Shown: positions 8,331-14,410 of the stretch, one piece after another | How the letters are laid out: each line of letters opens with the position of its first letter | Position numbering within the stretch: position 1 is the first letter of the stretch | From: Gemmatimonadota bacterium | Lineage (GTDB): Bacteria; Gemmatimonadota; Gemmatimonadetes; Longimicrobiales; Gaopeijiaceae | DNA length: 64,000 bases | Direction of reading: 5' to 3' | Assembly: GCA_003248075.1 (NCBI GenBank) | Contig: QJYK01000226.1 | Location: forward strand, 1 to 64,000 | Position numbers and translations under genes: made by a program | Notes under the pieces: model-generated | Databases searched by the model: none | Told to the model about the DNA's origin: nothing | Seen by the model: only the letters and a program-made list of their open reading frames with translations

Positions 8331-9065
8331 TCAACGCAGGCGGCGAGCGATCCACACCGTGCGGTAGATCGCCGTGCCCACGGTGCCCAGCGCCACCAAC
8401 CCCACGATGCCGCCCAAGAGGGCGCCGTCAGGGCGCCCGAGCCACATCGAGACCGTGGGGTCCAGGATCGCCCCGAACCCCAGAGCGAGCAGTCGTTCCG
8501 CCCGCTGCATGACGCCCAGCTTGCACACGACGCCGACGCTCTCTCCGCGGGCGCGCGCGTAGCTCACCAGGAGGGACCCGCCAAGCGCCGCCACAACGAG
8601 AACCAGGACCGGCTCGGAGCTGCGGAAGAAGACCGCCAGGCCGACGAACGTCGCGAACTCGGCGAAACGGTCCAATGTGGAGTCCAAGAAGGCCCCCCGG
8701 TCGTCCGCGACGCCCTGGGCTCGCGCGATCCGGCCGTCAAGGACATCCGCGACACCGCCGAGGAGGACCGCCCATCCAGCCGGGTTGGGTGCCCCCGTGG
8801 CGAAAAGGATCCCGGCCAGTACGCCGAAGCCCACCCCGAGGAGGTTGAAGAGGAGAGGTCCCAGGCGCAGCGCCAACGCGGTCTGCTCGAGCGGCCGGAC
8901 CAGCCAGTAGAACCAGTTGCGGGCGAAGGACCCGAGCACGAACGAGCCGCGGTCGGTGACGTCCAGGGGATCCCGGTTGCGCCGGCGCGAGCCGGCGGCG
9001 TAGACCGGCATCGACAGCAACGCGGCCGAAACGATCCCGACCAGGATCATCAGGTCCCGCGTCAC
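8331..9065 (-). CDS. CDP-alcohol phosphatidyltransferase family protein
   Basis: The 244-residue integral membrane protein carries the complete family motif D-x2-DG-x2-AR-x8-G-x3-D-x3-D: DVLDGRIARAQGVADDRG, then AFLDSTLDRF. The four Asp residues bind divalent metal and CDP-diacylglycerol. The enzyme joins a phosphatidyl group to an alcohol such as glycerol-3-phosphate, inositol phosphate or serine; the acceptor cannot be told from sequence. There are about six membrane segments. The GTG start overlaps the stop of the upstream Tam41-like gene (GTGA), making it the last gene of a lipid cassette that could supply its CDP-diacylglycerol substrate. Confidence 0.85.
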   Translation of the reverse strand: MTRDLMILVGIVSAALLSMPVYAAGSRRRNRDPLDVTDRGSFVLGSFARNWFYWLVRPLEQTALALRLGPLLFNLLGVGFGVLAGILFATGAPNPAGWAVLLGGVADVLDGRIARAQGVADDRGAFLDSTLDRFAEFATFVGLAVFFRSSEPVLVLVVAALGGSLLVSYARARGESVGVVCKLGVMQRAERLLALGFGAILDPTVSMWLGRPDGALLGGIVGLVALGTVGTAIYRTVWIARRLR

Positions 9066-10036
9066 CGGGCCTCCTCTTCGGTTTCGGGCCGTGACAGGAG
9101 GACGCGGATGACGCGCGGCCAGAGGAAGATCACGGGCAGCCGTCGTTCGAGCCGCGTCAGCTCGACCTTCATCCCGGTGCGCCGCTCAACCTTGCGGATG
9201 ACGTAGGGTAGCCAATTGTCGAACGTGAGGACGTGCTTGAGCCAGCGCGCCGTTACGCGCGCCTTCGACCACCTGAAGTGTCGGCGCCACATGCGACGCT
9301 CTCTCGGGTCAGGCCTTCGGACGAACCGGTACCCAGCCCCGTCGGTGCGTACGATGCGCCCCTCCCTGACCGCCCGGTCGAGCCCGGGCTGGAGGGCCCG
9401 TCGAAAGTGCTCTCGTTGACCCTGGAAGACCACCTCGGACCGGTTGGTGGCTTCTGGCCGGAACTCGGCTCGGTAGCAGAGGCCCAGAAGCGTTCTTCCT
9501 ACCGCCTCCGCGTCGAACGGCTCGTCGACGAAGGGACCCACCCACTGGAGGACGTCCGCCCTGGCTTCCTCCAGGAGGCCGAGCACCCATTGCCTGGTTT
9601 CCGCGTCCTTCCCCCAGACCAGGCGGACCTGCTGAACCAGCCGGCCTAGGAGGAAATGGTCACGCGGTGCCGGCCCCAACGCGCGTAGAAGGTCCTTCCG
9701 ATCGACGACCAGACACTTGGCGAGGGCCGTGCGTCCACCGTCGGGGGCGATGGCGATGACGTTCGGCGGAAGCACCTTCGAGAGGGCGACCATGAACGCG
9801 GCCGGGCGGTGGATCTCAGACGCCGCACGCAGTCCCCGATAGAAGTCTCCATAGTCGCTCACCACCACGACCAGATCGAGGGCGGAGTGCCGGTCGGGAC
9901 TGGCCCCGTGGAGATGCGATCCGTACAGAAGAACGGCCTCGAGGCTTCCCGCCGCCCCGTGGCGGAGACAATCCAGGAGCTCGCTCAGGGAGCTGGATGC
10001 CGAGGTCGCGCCGCCCGTGTCCCCGCCCGCATTCAC
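9062..10036 (-). CDS. Tam41/Mmp37-like nucleotidyltransferase, putative CDP-diacylglycerol synthase
   Basis: The 324-residue protein shows a nucleotidyltransferase start: LLYGSHLHGASPD at 36-48, then ALDLVVVVSD, whose D54 and D61 match the spacing in Tam41 (D-x-I-x-x-V-x-D). Further Tam41-like features are SKVLPPNVIAIAP and KCLVVDRKDLLRAL followed by FLLGRLVQQVRLVW, which parallels the K-Y-G-V / DL / Y-x-A-G-R-x-x-K-P-V region. Tam41 is the peripheral CDP-diacylglycerol synthase of mitochondria, unrelated to CdsA, and bacterial homologues are known. The gene overlaps its neighbours by 4 nt on each side: an acyltransferase that makes phosphatidate, and a transferase that uses CDP-diacylglycerol. 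That context strongly fits the assignment. The C-terminus is basic and may bind membrane. A different nucleotidyltransferase activity remains possible. Confidence 0.65.
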   Translation of the reverse strand: MNAGGDTGGATSASSSLSELLDCLRHGAAGSLEAVLLYGSHLHGASPDRHSALDLVVVVSDYGDFYRGLRAASEIHRPAAFMVALSKVLPPNVIAIAPDGGRTALAKCLVVDRKDLLRALGPAPRDHFLLGRLVQQVRLVWGKDAETRQWVLGLLEEARADVLQWVGPFVDEPFDAEAVGRTLLGLCYRAEFRPEATNRSEVVFQGQREHFRRALQPGLDRAVREGRIVRTDGAGYRFVRRPDPRERRMWRRHFRWSKARVTARWLKHVLTFDNWLPYVIRKVERRTGMKVELTRLERRLPVIFLWPRVIRVLLSRPETEEEAR

Positions 10037-10812
10037 GCCGCGACCTCCGACCGCATTCCGGCGAGAGCCTCGACCATCCGCTCGCGCATGGCCAGGGCGA
10101 AGGCGTCGATATCACCCGAGCCGGCGCCGTCGGATCCCGGCCACGAGAACGGGCCCAGCACCCGCACGGCACCATCGATCCCTGCCATTCCCGACATGAA
10201 ATCGGTGAACTTGGCGCGCTTCCAGAACCCGTCGGTCACGACCAGGTATACCGTCCATCCGCGCTCCGCGAGAATGTGCCGGAGTCCCTGGGTCTTGAAT
10301 CGCCCAATCTCGCCGTCCTTGGTCCGCGTGCCTTCGGGAAAGACTACGAGGGGGACGGCGGATTCCCGCGCGGCCTCGGACAGAGCGGCCAGTGACCTCC
10401 GGGTGGATCCGGCGTTTGCCCTCGGGTCGACCACCGGGTATTGATAGACCCGCACCATGTGCGAGATTAGCGGGATCCACCGTTCGTAGCGCCTTCTGGT
10501 GATGATCCGCGGGTAGGCGTCACGTAGGCCCGCGACCACGATCGGGATGTCCAGGAGCGATTGGTGGTTCATGAGCACGAGGGTGCCGGCCCGCCCCGGG
10601 ATCGCGGGGACCTCGGGGATGCGGGCCCCTCCGACATGGCGCACGGCGCCCAGGACGAAGTGCGCCAGGGCGTGCTGCCAGCGAGTCAGGACCCGGATCC
10701 TGCTGGACGGGGCCAGTCGGGCCAAAGGCCATATCAAGAGGCGCTGGATCGGGTCTCCAACCAGCAGCATCAGACAGACCAGAGCCAAGGCGAGGTAGCC
10801 TCGGAGCTTCAA
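10033..10812 (-). CDS. PlsC-family 1-acyl-sn-glycerol-3-phosphate acyltransferase
   Basis: The 259-residue protein has an N-terminal membrane helix (about 5-25) and the acyltransferase motifs NHQSLLD (H-x4-D), RRYERWIPLISHM, and FPEGTRTKDGE. The family acylates lysophosphatidate to phosphatidate at the inner membrane. The layout resembles the YihG/PlsC-like subgroup with a long C-terminal region. It is the first gene of a three-gene overlapping operon, so it may feed phosphatidate to the Tam41-like enzyme. Its stop overlaps the next GTG start (GTGA). Confidence 0.85.
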   Translation of the reverse strand: MKLRGYLALALVCLMLLVGDPIQRLLIWPLARLAPSSRIRVLTRWQHALAHFVLGAVRHVGGARIPEVPAIPGRAGTLVLMNHQSLLDIPIVVAGLRDAYPRIITRRRYERWIPLISHMVRVYQYPVVDPRANAGSTRRSLAALSEAARESAVPLVVFPEGTRTKDGEIGRFKTQGLRHILAERGWTVYLVVTDGFWKRAKFTDFMSGMAGIDGAVRVLGPFSWPGSDGAGSGDIDAFALAMRERMVEALAGMRSEVAA

Positions 10813-10951
10813 GGAAAACGGTCTCCGTCACGAAAGGGTGGGCCCCAGAGCGGCAGGCGCGCCTCGAACCGCCAACGGTAATCGGACCCCCAGAGCCACA
10901 TCAAGACACCAGGGTGGACGTGCCCGGCCGGTGCAATCCCAAGAGGAACAG

Positions 10952-11614
10952 ATGGAGTATACGTACTACGGATTCCGCAACTGTGTGGGAGCGTTCTTCG
11001 AGATGCCCACGGCAGACGCACGGAGCATCCTCCCGCCTCACCTCCAGCCGGTGGAGCTTCAGCACACCCGGAGCATCTTCGCGATCACGGCGTTCGAGTT
11101 CACCGAAAGCATGGTCGGCACCTATGAAGAAGTGGTGCTCGCGGTGATCGTTCCCCCGATGGTGGAGCCGGGGAAGCCCCTGCCCAAGGCCGCGTTCTAC
11201 CCCTTCATGGTGGGAACGTCCACCAAGGCGTCGAGGCTCCACGCCATCGAGCGCTGGCACCTTCCCCATTACATGGGGGACCTCGAGATCGCTTTCAGCG
11301 AGGCGGACGGGCAGATGGAAGTCAATGTTCGAGATGAGGGCGCTCCGGTTCTGGACCTCACCGTCACCGACTACGCCTTCGAGTCCGTGAAGAACCTCTA
11401 TAGCGCCTTCATGATCGAAGGCGAAGGCCGGTACAAGGCCAACATCTACATGGAGGCGCCGCACTCAGAGCACGAGGAGGAGCGCGGCTCGCTGACGCTC
11501 TACGAACATCCCATGACCGCTGCGCTCACGATCCCGGAGGTCAACACCTGGCCGTTTCGGGAGCAGTGGTATCGCGCCGGGCTCCAGACCTTCGAGCCTC
11601 TGGAGACGCTCTGA
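10952..11614 (+). CDS. Acetoacetate decarboxylase-like protein
   Basis: The 220-residue protein starts at MEYTYYG, preceded by AAGAGGAA; the frame is open upstream but not protein-like. Its length and pattern match the acetoacetate decarboxylase superfamily: early P-x-L-P-P-H-L, a central YPFMVGTSTKASRLHAIE stretch and a C-terminal VNTWPF. In the classical enzyme a Pro-Lys pair supplies the Schiff-base lysine; the aligned position here reads LPHYMG, so the lysine may be missing and the chemistry different. It overlaps or abuts the diacylglycerol kinase gene. Role unknown; members of this superfamily also act as aldolase/dehydratases or lipocalin-like binders. Confidence 0.6.
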   Translation: MEYTYYGFRNCVGAFFEMPTADARSILPPHLQPVELQHTRSIFAITAFEFTESMVGTYEEVVLAVIVPPMVEPGKPLPKAAFYPFMVGTSTKASRLHAIERWHLPHYMGDLEIAFSEADGQMEVNVRDEGAPVLDLTVTDYAFESVKNLYSAFMIEGEGRYKANIYMEAPHSEHEEERGSLTLYEHPMTAALTIPEVNTWPFREQWYRAGLQTFEPLETL

Positions 11615-12576
11615 GGGACCCGGCGCGCATCTTCGTCGTCTTCAATCCGGCAGCCGGACGCGGACGCGGATCGCGCCGGATCCCTGCGTATCAGAGCCTG
11701 CTCCAGCTGGAGCTCCCCGCGGCAGAGTGGGGCCTCACCCGTGCACCCGGAGCGGAGCGTGAGCTCGCGGAGCGAGCCATCGACGACGGATACGGCGTCA
11801 TCGTCGCGGCAGGGGGCGACGGGACCTGGAGCAACGTCGCGGACCGGATCGTAGCGTCCGGCGAAGACATCGCGTTCGGCGTGCTCCCCAACGGCACCGG
11901 AAACGACTTCGGCCGGAATCTGGGATTCCGGCCCGCAGGCGCGGCGGAGGCCGTGCGCGCGCTGGCGCGTGGCGTCACGAGGCTCGTGGACGTGGGACGG
12001 CTCGAGACACCGAGCGCGTCCGAACACGCGCCGGACGCCTTCGAACCTCGCCACTTTCTGAACCTCATCGGCTTCGGTTTCGACGTCGCGGTGATTGACG
12101 CGGCCGCGCACGCGCGCTTCCTGAAGGGTGAGCTGCTCTACAAAGTGACGGCGCTGCAGCAGCTTTTCCGCTTCCCCGGGGTCCAGCTCAGCGTGGACGG
12201 CGGCGAGGGGCCCATCCGAGAAGGGCGTCACCTGATGCTCACGGTGTCGAACGGCCGCTTCTTCGGAGGTGGCTTCCCGATCGCGCCGGACGCGAGCCTG
12301 GACGACGGTCGCCTACACGCATGCAGGATCGGCGACGCGGCGCCATTGACCCGCCTGAAGTTGTTCAACCTGGCGCAACGTGGTCGGCACCTCGAGTCGG
12401 AGCGTGTGGAGGTCCTGGCGCGACGGTCCTTCCGGATCGGGTTCGGCCGGCCGCCGCGCTTCGAGATGGACGGGGATGTTCGGGTTGCGTCCTGCGAGGA
12501 CCTCACCGTCCGGGTCCTCCCCGCAGCCCTCAGGGTCGTCGTGCCCCCCACGCCCGGGGCGGACGGCGGCCACTGA
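11566..12576 (+). CDS. Diacylglycerol kinase catalytic-domain lipid kinase
   Basis: The DAGK signature is complete: FNPAAGRGRG near the N-terminus, AAGGDGTWSNV, and LPNGTGNDFGRNLGF. The second domain includes NLIGFGFDVAV and NGRFFGGGFPIAPDA. Members phosphorylate diacylglycerol or related lipids with ATP, recycling diacylglycerol to phosphatidate. The first canonical start, GTG at 11566, lies 49 nt inside the preceding gene; the family N-terminus fits better near DPARIFVVF, where a CTG at 11611 overlaps the preceding stop as CTGA with GGAG upstream. The start is therefore uncertain. With the adjacent cassette it suggests a phosphatidate-centred locus. Confidence 0.85.
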   Translation: MVSRRAPDLRASGDALRDPARIFVVFNPAAGRGRGSRRIPAYQSLLQLELPAAEWGLTRAPGAERELAERAIDDGYGVIVAAGGDGTWSNVADRIVASGEDIAFGVLPNGTGNDFGRNLGFRPAGAAEAVRALARGVTRLVDVGRLETPSASEHAPDAFEPRHFLNLIGFGFDVAVIDAAAHARFLKGELLYKVTALQQLFRFPGVQLSVDGGEGPIREGRHLMLTVSNGRFFGGGFPIAPDASLDDGRLHACRIGDAAPLTRLKLFNLAQRGRHLESERVEVLARRSFRIGFGRPPRFEMDGDVRVASCEDLTVRVLPAALRVVVPPTPGADGGH

Positions 12577-12609
12577 CACGCAGAGGGCACCCGTGGTCCA
12601 TGCGGACTC

Positions 12610-12628
12610 TACTTTACGAAGCAAAGTA
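12610..12628. promoter_or_regulatory. TACTTT-N7-AAAGTA palindrome, probable operator for the winged-helix regulator
   Basis: TACTTT (12610-12615) and AAAGTA (12623-12628) are a perfect 6-bp inverted repeat with a 7-nt centre, 38 bp upstream of the membrane-protein/winged-helix gene pair. A TTGACC (12630-12635) follows directly and could be a -35 element, though no good -10 is visible. Autoregulation by the downstream regulator is inferred. Confidence 0.45.
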
Positions 12629-12665
12629 CTTGACCGGCCGTCGAGGGCACCCCAGAGTTTGGTAT

Positions 12666-13283
12666 ATGAGCCTTCCTGCCAGAAAGTTCGGCCGGCGCGA
12701 CCGGACTCCGGTGGCCCTCCACGACAGGGCGATCGCCGACCTCCGTTTCATCCGGGAGACCATGGAGCGGTCCGCCTCGTTCACGGCGGTCTCGGGGCGC
12801 GGCGGTGTCGCTATGGGCCTCGTGGCGCTGCTCGCCGCAGCACTCGCGGGCGGAGGCCTCTCTGCCCAGAGCTGGATGAGCATCTGGATGGCAGCAGCCG
12901 CGGTGAGCTTCTCGATCGCCCTGTGGGCCACCGGCGCGAAGGCGCGCGCCGCGGGCACTCCTCTTCTTGTCGGCGCGGGCCGAAAGTTCATCTGGAACGT
13001 CATCCCGCCCTTGTTTGTCGGAGGTCTGCTGACACTGGCATTGGCCCGCGCAGGCCTACACGCAGCGCTGCCCGGCACATGGCTACTCCTCTACGGAACC
13101 GCCGTACTCGCGGGCGGGGCGTTCTCGGTACGGATCGTACCCCTCATGGGGTCGGCCTTCATGGCTGTGGGCGCGTTCGCGCTGTTCGCTCCCGTCAGCC
13201 TCGGCAACTTGTTCATGGCCATCGGTTTCGGAGGCCTCCACATCGTCTTCGGCCTGGTCATCTGGAGGAAGCATGGCGGCTGA
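12666..13283 (+). CDS. Predicted multi-pass membrane protein
   Basis: The 205-residue protein has a short basic N-terminus (KFGRRDR, then DRAIADLRFIRETMERS), like family members that begin with an RFIRETMEx motif. Six or so hydrophobic segments follow, among them VAMGLVALLAAALAGGGL and FIWNVIPPLFVGGLLTLAL. ATG 12666 is preferred over the ATG at 12600, because the latter would put the palindromic operator inside the coding region. It overlaps the winged-helix regulator by 11 bp. Such membrane-protein/HTH_34 pairs recur in bacteria, but I know of no established function. Confidence 0.65.
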   Translation: MSLPARKFGRRDRTPVALHDRAIADLRFIRETMERSASFTAVSGRGGVAMGLVALLAAALAGGGLSAQSWMSIWMAAAAVSFSIALWATGAKARAAGTPLLVGAGRKFIWNVIPPLFVGGLLTLALARAGLHAALPGTWLLLYGTAVLAGGAFSVRIVPLMGSAFMAVGAFALFAPVSLGNLFMAIGFGGLHIVFGLVIWRKHGG

Positions 13284-13659
13284 TCGGAGCACGGCCCGCA
13301 AGGCGCAGGAAGAAGACTCCAGACCGGCGCTCGGATCCGTGGCGGGCCTGGCTCGGGAGGCCGGCGCGCTCGAGCTGGACCGTCTGATCCACGAGCGGGT
13401 GCGTCTGGGAATCGTGAGCACCCTGGCGGTGAATGGGCGCCTTCCGTTCACCCACCTCCGTGAGCTGCTGGGCACCACGGACGGGAACCTGAGCGCGCAC
13501 GCGCGCAAGCTCGAGGACGCCGGTTACGTCGTCTGCCACAAGTCGTTCGAGGGGCGGACACCACGAACCGATTTCGAGCTCACACCTCGAGGCCGTCGGG
13601 CGCTGGGCGCCTATCTGGACCACATGGAGGCGATCATCCAGGCGACGCGGGACGGCTGA
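13273..13659 (+). CDS. Winged-helix transcriptional regulator (HTH_34/MarR-like)
   Basis: The 128-residue protein contains a winged helix from about residue 35: LDRLIHERVRLGIVSTLAV, LPFTHLRELLGTTDGNLSAH (recognition region), ARKLEDAGYVVCHK, then wing and dimer helix RTDFELTPRGRRALGAYLDH. This is the compact HTH_34 type, related to ArsR/PadR regulators. It has no metal-binding cysteine pair, so a metal-sensing role is unlikely. The gene overlaps the membrane-protein gene, and the palindrome at 12610-12628 is the likely target. Confidence 0.8.
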   Translation: MAADRSTARKAQEEDSRPALGSVAGLAREAGALELDRLIHERVRLGIVSTLAVNGRLPFTHLRELLGTTDGNLSAHARKLEDAGYVVCHKSFEGRTPRTDFELTPRGRRALGAYLDHMEAIIQATRDG

Positions 13660-13690
13660 GCGACGAACATCATTCGGATTTTTTTTCACT

Positions 13691-14410
13691 ATGGACTCCG
13701 CGATACAGAGAACTTCGCTCGCTCCCGGTCTCCACGTCGGGATCATCATGGACGGGAACGGAAGGTGGGCGACCGCCCGCGGCCGCCGCCGCGAGCTGGG
13801 GCACCGCGCCGGGGCGCGATCCGTCGAGCGAGTGGTGCGCTGTGCCCCCGATCTGGGAATCCGCACACTGACCCTCTATGCGTTCTCTTCGGACAACTGG
13901 CGCCGCCCACAGCGAGAGGTCAGAGCGCTCATGGCCCTGTTTCGGAGGTATCTGCGGAGGGAGTCCGGTGCACTGGCAGATGCCGGTGTGCGCCTCAGGG
14001 TCGTCGGGCGACGAGACCGTCTGCCTACCCCCGTCGTCGAGGCCATCACGGAGGCGGAGGCTCGGACATCGGATGGAGATCGCCTACTTCTTCGCCTCGC
14101 TGTGGACTACTCGAGCCGCCATGTGCTCCTCGAGGCCGCGAGGCGCTTCGCGGAGGGGGTGAGCGATTCCTTCACCGAGTGCATTGCCCAGGCGATGCAC
14201 TGCCCCGAGGGAGCCCCGGACGTGGATCTGATGGTGCGCACCGGAGGGGAGCAGCGGCTCAGCGACTTCTTGCTCTGGGAGTCGGCGTACGCGGAGCTCG
14301 TATTCTCGCCCCGAATGTGGCCCGACTTCGACGCCTCGGATCTGACGTCTGCCGTCAAGGAGTTCCGGGGCCGGAACCGGCGCTTCGGAAGGGTGGCCGC
14401 GGCGGTCTGA
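13691..14410 (+). CDS. uppS: Isoprenyl transferase (undecaprenyl diphosphate synthase family)
   Basis: The 239-residue protein has the cis-prenyltransferase motifs: IIMDGNGRWATARG with the catalytic Asp, YAFSSDNWRRP, and the C-terminal RTGGEQRLSDFLLWESAYAE. It condenses isopentenyl diphosphate units on farnesyl diphosphate to make the C55 lipid carrier for peptidoglycan and O-antigen. In many genomes uppS sits with cdsA and rseP; here it stands alone after a regulator gene. A T8 run (13679-13686) lies 4 nt before the start, with only a 4-bp hairpin before it. Confidence 0.88.
   Translation: MDSAIQRTSLAPGLHVGIIMDGNGRWATARGRRRELGHRAGARSVERVVRCAPDLGIRTLTLYAFSSDNWRRPQREVRALMALFRRYLRRESGALADAGVRLRVVGRRDRLPTPVVEAITEAEARTSDGDRLLLRLAVDYSSRHVLLEAARRFAEGVSDSFTECIAQAMHCPEGAPDVDLMVRTGGEQRLSDFLLWESAYAELVFSPRMWPDFDASDLTSAVKEFRGRNRRFGRVAAAV

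Follow-up and report, generated by a model that had tools for sequence, protein, structure and literature searches.

In textbooks, the activated membrane lipid is CDP-diacylglycerol. Tam41 has been reviewed as a mitochondrial enzyme acting on phosphatidate (PMC7018664). In Bacteroides, inositol phosphoceramide arises when phosphoinositol is moved from phosphatidylinositol (PI) via an AUR1-like enzyme (PMC8791184, PMC9246714); the PI is made on diacylglycerol, and neither a lipid kinase nor a Tam41-like enzyme is described for the BT1522-1526 operon. For Prevotella, activation of the head group followed by condensation with ceramide has been proposed (PMC9246714). The ceramide phosphoglycerate pathway of Caulobacter combines serine palmitoyltransferase (SPT) with CpgB, a bacterial ceramide kinase and thus a precedent for this activity (PMC10331486), and with CpgD, a head-group cytidylyltransferase that activates phosphoglycerate and resembles inositol-1-phosphate cytidylyltransferase (PMC12275187). 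A search of the open literature, with subscription papers lying mostly outside it, found no mention of CDP-ceramide or close variants, and literature searches for sphingolipids or PI in Gemmatimonadota yielded nothing useful.

The locus analysed here lies in a stretch of 64,000 nucleotides (the window) from a Gemmatimonadota bacterium (contig QJYK01000226.1, positions 1 to 64,000). Both coordinates and sequence bear out the originally described set of three open reading frames on the minus strand, coding for a PlsC-fold acyltransferase (10033..10812), a nucleotidyltransferase (NT; 9062..10036) and a CDP-alcohol phosphotransferase (PT; 8331..9065). The overlaps between acyltransferase and NT genes (10033-10036) and between NT and PT genes (9062-9065) each read GTGA on that strand. 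Most related loci, of which there are about 90, keep this order, which is thus not due to chance. In these loci, the cassette faces a divergent gene pair (10952-12576, plus strand in the window), composed of the gene for an acetoacetate-decarboxylase-fold (ADC-like) protein (10952..11614) and that for a YegS/DAGK-type lipid kinase (11566..12576, with a start that may lie anywhere between 11566 and about 11620). A short divergent intergenic region (10813..10951) separates the two halves. All five genes were found in 47 of 64 loci from named genomes, several of the others being truncated contigs. The unit is larger than three genes and includes the divergent pair. A search for relatives recovered the NT family from Gemmatimonadota and from metagenome-assembled genomes whose labels, as deposited, read Latescibacterota, Krumholzibacteriota, Eisenbacteria, Acidobacteria/Vicinamibacteria, Gammaproteobacteria and Acidimicrobiia. 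In several phyla, a zinc-type alcohol dehydrogenase gene adjoins the kinase gene (L104 685-1914, L118 949-2172, L157-L159) and may be a further member of the module. In the window, the kinase gene is followed (12321-14410) by genes for a membrane protein, a short regulator-like protein and an undecaprenyl diphosphate synthase homologue, a trio also seen together next to the module in about eight relatives.

NT had been proposed to be a Tam41-like enzyme. Searches with the single sequence against Pfam, NCBIfam and the PDB were uninformative, with no Pfam family above its cut-off and Polbeta (E 0.068) as the sole Pfam match; the family was resolved by a family profile and a structural model. Relatives were gathered within the family and order to which the window genome belongs, and 31 of them were aligned to build the profile. 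Its first PDB matches were S. pombe Tam41 (6ig2/6ig4, E 7e-4, positions 11-203), followed by the next match at E 0.78, and hhalign aligned the NT family with a Tam41 fragment at E 4e-6 over 180 columns. Comparison with the Pfam model Tam41_Mmp37 (PF09139) gave a mixed picture: the window protein itself had no match, nine of the 31 close relatives matched (best E 2.7e-8), and the others either reached 12.7-23.7 bits, short of the cut-off of 24, or had no match. The same model found no match in the window genome and two sub-threshold matches in 101 genomes of the phylum.

In Foldseek, the AlphaFold2 model of NT (pLDDT 88, pTM 0.86) came closest to 7ecd, the structure of a Tam41 from Firmicutes with CTP-Mg (E 1.5e-7; TM score of 0.61 relative to the target), and next to SpTam41 6ig4 (E 6e-6), with Tam41 alignments of 260-276 columns. 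The next nucleotidyltransferase appeared at 3.6e-4, and antibiotic- and toxin-type enzymes were well behind. In the model, a nucleotidyltransferase domain is followed by the Tam41 second domain. The YGS motif, D54, K107, R132, E191 and R193 are invariant in 71 sequences; in the hhalign and hmmsearch alignments, S40 and the latter five residues correspond to YGS, ID, the lysine of IIKYGV, the arginine of AGRF and GDIR of Tam41. The C-terminus forms conserved basic helices (residues 244-315), as judged from the family alignment and the model, which may be the counterpart of the positively charged, amphipathic membrane-binding helix of Tam41. NT thus shares with Tam41/Mmp37 proteins (PF09139; 6ig2, 6ig4, 7ecd) a nucleotidyltransferase domain with a second helical domain, YGS, the aligned D/K/R residues and a basic helical C-terminus, whereas its identity to them is low (about 13-20%), the window protein stays under the Pfam cut-off, and NT is set in a probable sphingolipid module, its substrate being a prediction. 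NT is a remote homologue of Tam41; its activity as a CTP:lipid-phosphate cytidylyltransferase is predicted from sequence and model. Genome G008 has a further, divergent paralogue of NT (L053 81-989; about 30-32% identity), whose short contig contains none of the other four genes of the module.

Single-sequence searches also returned Polbeta, AadA and HalB matches, which would fit a small-molecule or protein nucleotidyltransferase of the aminoglycoside or toxin-like type that sits in a lipid operon by chance. These matches are weak, below significance and limited to the N-terminal domain (AadA/aminoglycoside-type models: E 0.06-0.2, 10.9-12.6 bits against cut-offs of 193-400), whereas family profile, hhalign and fold all favour Tam41, the second domain included, and the association with lipid genes holds across phyla. 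Such an identity is highly improbable; none of the searches clearly matched NT to enzymes of the aminoglycoside or tRNA type, and aminoglycoside- and toxin-type nucleotidyltransferases were rejected.

PT, which is predicted to catalyse the last step, belongs to the Pfam family CDP-OH_P_transf (PF01066, E 5.6e-10). NCBIfam models of archaetidylinositol-phosphate and PI-phosphate (PI-P) synthases match it at 3e-34 to 6e-26, with scores below their equivalog cut-offs (118.6 versus 180 and 91.5 versus 170 bits). Its best PDB matches are AF2299-PI synthase fusions and the PI-P synthase 6h53. The motif D107xxD110Gxx-A114R115...G124xxxD128xxxD132 (DxxDGxxAR(8x)GxxxDxxxD) is 100% conserved in 67 sequences and shared with PI-P synthases (6h53, 5d91/5d92) and archaetidylinositol-phosphate synthase, whose KARAE...ERSER stretch aligns with RARGE...QRAER of PT; PT differs from these enzymes in its sub-threshold scores and in its predicted lipid donor.

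In most Gemmatimonadota, a PI-P-synthase-like paralogue of PT (about 40% identical) lies beside the gene for myo-inositol-phosphate synthase (MIPS). In genomes lacking NT, it is located just before MIPS in a housekeeping block (prfA to obgE), whose genes were named from their sequences (MIPS neighbourhoods L176-L183, from G000, G022, G010, G069, G014, G005, G026 and G041). The paralogue is found within 3 kb of MIPS in 56 of 66 genomes without NT, as against 10 of 32 with NT (Fisher 3e-7), and in four NT-bearing genomes, including the window genome, it is gone from this slot while MIPS stays. Most simply, this loss would mean that the inositol-phosphate acceptor has passed to the cassette PT. 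The presence of MIPS was dropped as an argument for an inositol head group since the gene occurs in 92 of 98 genomes and does not discriminate, whereas loss of the MIPS-linked paralogue does.

PT further matches the model of DIPP synthase, which uses CDP-inositol (4e-11), and head-group cytidylyltransferases occur in other bacterial sphingolipid clusters (PMC9246714, PMC12275187). NT could accordingly be imagined to make, for instance, CDP-inositol from inositol-phosphate, with PT condensing the product with ceramide or ceramide-phosphate. We consider this improbable: the cytidylyltransferases of those clusters are related to inositol-1-phosphate and phosphocholine cytidylyltransferases and are not Tam41-like, while NT matches an enzyme that activates a membrane lipid and keeps the conserved basic helical C-terminus, and a lipid kinase would be needless.

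The acyltransferase matches Pfam Acyltransferase (PF01553, E 8.4e-15) and carries NHQSLLD (NHx4D) and PEGTR motifs conserved in 64 sequences. The kinase is recognised by the Pfam models DAGK_cat (5e-26) and YegS_C (8e-24), and its GGDGT motif is invariant in relatives. The ADC-like protein matches Pfam ADC (E 2.6e-7), and its model (pLDDT 96) is similar to MppR/ADC in Foldseek (E 2e-11). At the level of the family alignment, no lysine is found among the conserved positions to provide the catalytic Schiff-base residue, so that the protein is probably not an ordinary decarboxylase. A search of the window genome for cdsA identified one copy, outside the cassette (PF01148, E 3e-50).

A gene for an SPT-type alpha-oxoamine synthase is part of the cassette cluster and adjoins the ADC-like gene in all 18 non-Gemmatimonadota loci examined, and it also adjoins an ADC-like gene in some Gemmatimonadota. 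Some Acidobacteria contain a run in one direction of the genes for SPT, ADC-like protein, kinase, acyltransferase, NT and PT, with a short-chain reductase gene before SPT. The window itself has no SPT gene, which is a point against a sphingolipid function; in the window genome, SPT is encoded on a different contig, where its gene overlaps that of an ADC-like paralogue (41% identity). This SPT has its best PDB matches in the Sphingobacterium SPTs 3a2b and 8guh (about 5.5e-80), with the active-site sequence GTFSKSL shared. SPT relatives score under the NCBIfam equivalog cut-offs, and their SPT specificity is thus a prediction.

Among 98 related genomes, 28 contain both NT and SPT, four NT only, seven SPT only and 59 neither, so that SPT is present in 28 of 32 NT-bearing genomes and in 7 of 66 genomes without NT (Fisher 6e-14, a statistic that ignores phylogeny). 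The ADC-like family was detected in 37 of the 98 genomes, namely all 35 with SPT and two drafts in which SPT was not found (Fisher 1e-24, likewise ignoring phylogeny). The initial view of the ADC-like gene as a mere neighbour was dropped once the gene was found to track SPT. Its family, whose members often overlap the SPT gene, is a candidate sphingolipid protein family (examples at 10952-11614 of the window and 8852-9514 of L156). Several genomes with SPT and without NT keep the SPT, ADC-like and kinase genes together, which places the kinase with the sphingoid backbone.

Three of the four genomes with NT in which SPT was not found probably reflect draft gaps: G040 and G049 retain the ADC-like gene, with a second fragment at a contig end in G040, and G043 is about 89% complete and has a congener with SPT. 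Of the genomes with SPT and without NT, G003 contains part of a cassette-type PT gene, with its start at base 11 of a contig, and G032 has a completeness of 60%. The fourth genome with NT and no SPT, G041 (L173/L054), is a real exception to the pairing of the two. Its genome, a single contig of about 93% completeness, has the kinase, NT and PT but lacks genes for SPT, the ADC-like protein and an adjacent acyltransferase; relative to its congener G005, the middle three genes are missing as a block.

The cassette is thus tied to a lipid kinase, a decarboxylase-like protein and SPT, which does not support the self-contained route from phosphatidate to a phospholipid of the original prediction; that pathway is probably wrong. 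The same linkage makes ceramide-1-phosphate more likely than phosphatidate as the activated lipid. The folds of the YegS-type kinase and the PlsC-type acyltransferase, which normally act on glycerolipids, and the scores of PT under the PI-P synthase cut-offs speak against the inositol sphingolipid reading set out below. The kinase, NT and PT of G041 may act on diacylglycerol, and a route through phosphatidate and CDP-diacylglycerol is thus possible there and, by extension, in the window genome. In such a route, which is close to the original idea, the kinase and/or acyltransferase would supply phosphatidate, NT would convert it to CDP-diacylglycerol and PT would form PI-phosphate, providing a second, CdsA-independent supply of inositol phospholipid. 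The use of phosphatidate by characterised Tam41 enzymes (PMC7018664) is compatible with it as well, as is the fact that many cassette-bearing genomes have lost the PI-P synthase paralogue next to MIPS. We nonetheless regard this route as unlikely, because CDP-diacylglycerol is already supplied by CdsA, because SPT is linked to the cassette in every non-Gemmatimonadota locus examined and co-occurs with it, and because the kinase sits with SPT even where NT is absent.

Our preferred reading, to which we assign a probability of roughly 60%, is that a sphingolipid module has the cassette as its head-group half and makes an inositol sphingolipid via CTP-activated ceramide. SPT, encoded elsewhere in the window genome and within the cluster in relatives, would build the sphingoid backbone together with the ADC-like protein. 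The backbone would then be N-acylated, possibly by the PlsC-fold acyltransferase, which may also act elsewhere. The YegS-type enzyme, a predicted ceramide kinase of the same broad superfamily as CpgB, would phosphorylate ceramide to ceramide-1-phosphate. NT would transfer CMP from CTP to this lipid, yielding CDP-ceramide, and PT would combine CDP-ceramide with inositol-phosphate, giving inositol-phosphoceramide(-phosphate) and CMP. Housekeeping CdsA would serve the diacylglycerol lipids. We infer the order of these steps, ceramide-1-phosphate as the substrate and inositol-phosphate as the acceptor. Like the Caulobacter pathway, the module would combine SPT, a lipid kinase making a sphingolipid phosphate and a CTP-dependent nucleotidyltransferase (PMC10331486, PMC12275187), but this last enzyme is Tam41-like in the window and followed by a CDP-alcohol phosphotransferase. 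Its parallels with the Bacteroides operon would be a phosphotransferase resembling PI-P synthases and the addition of phosphoinositol to a lipid that derives from SPT.

The odds seem about even that these genes represent a bacterial CDP-ceramide pathway, present across Gemmatimonadota, Acidobacteriota and several candidate phyla, in which inositol-phosphoceramide is built directly on the activated ceramide and no AUR1-type transfer from PI takes place. The SPT-coupled decarboxylase-fold protein is singled out by the analysis as a candidate sphingolipid protein. If ceramide-1-phosphate is the substrate, the module would constitute a new branch of lipid biochemistry, the Tam41 family would gain a role outside CDP-diacylglycerol synthesis, and a genetic marker would become available for producers of phosphosphingolipids in widespread environmental phyla.
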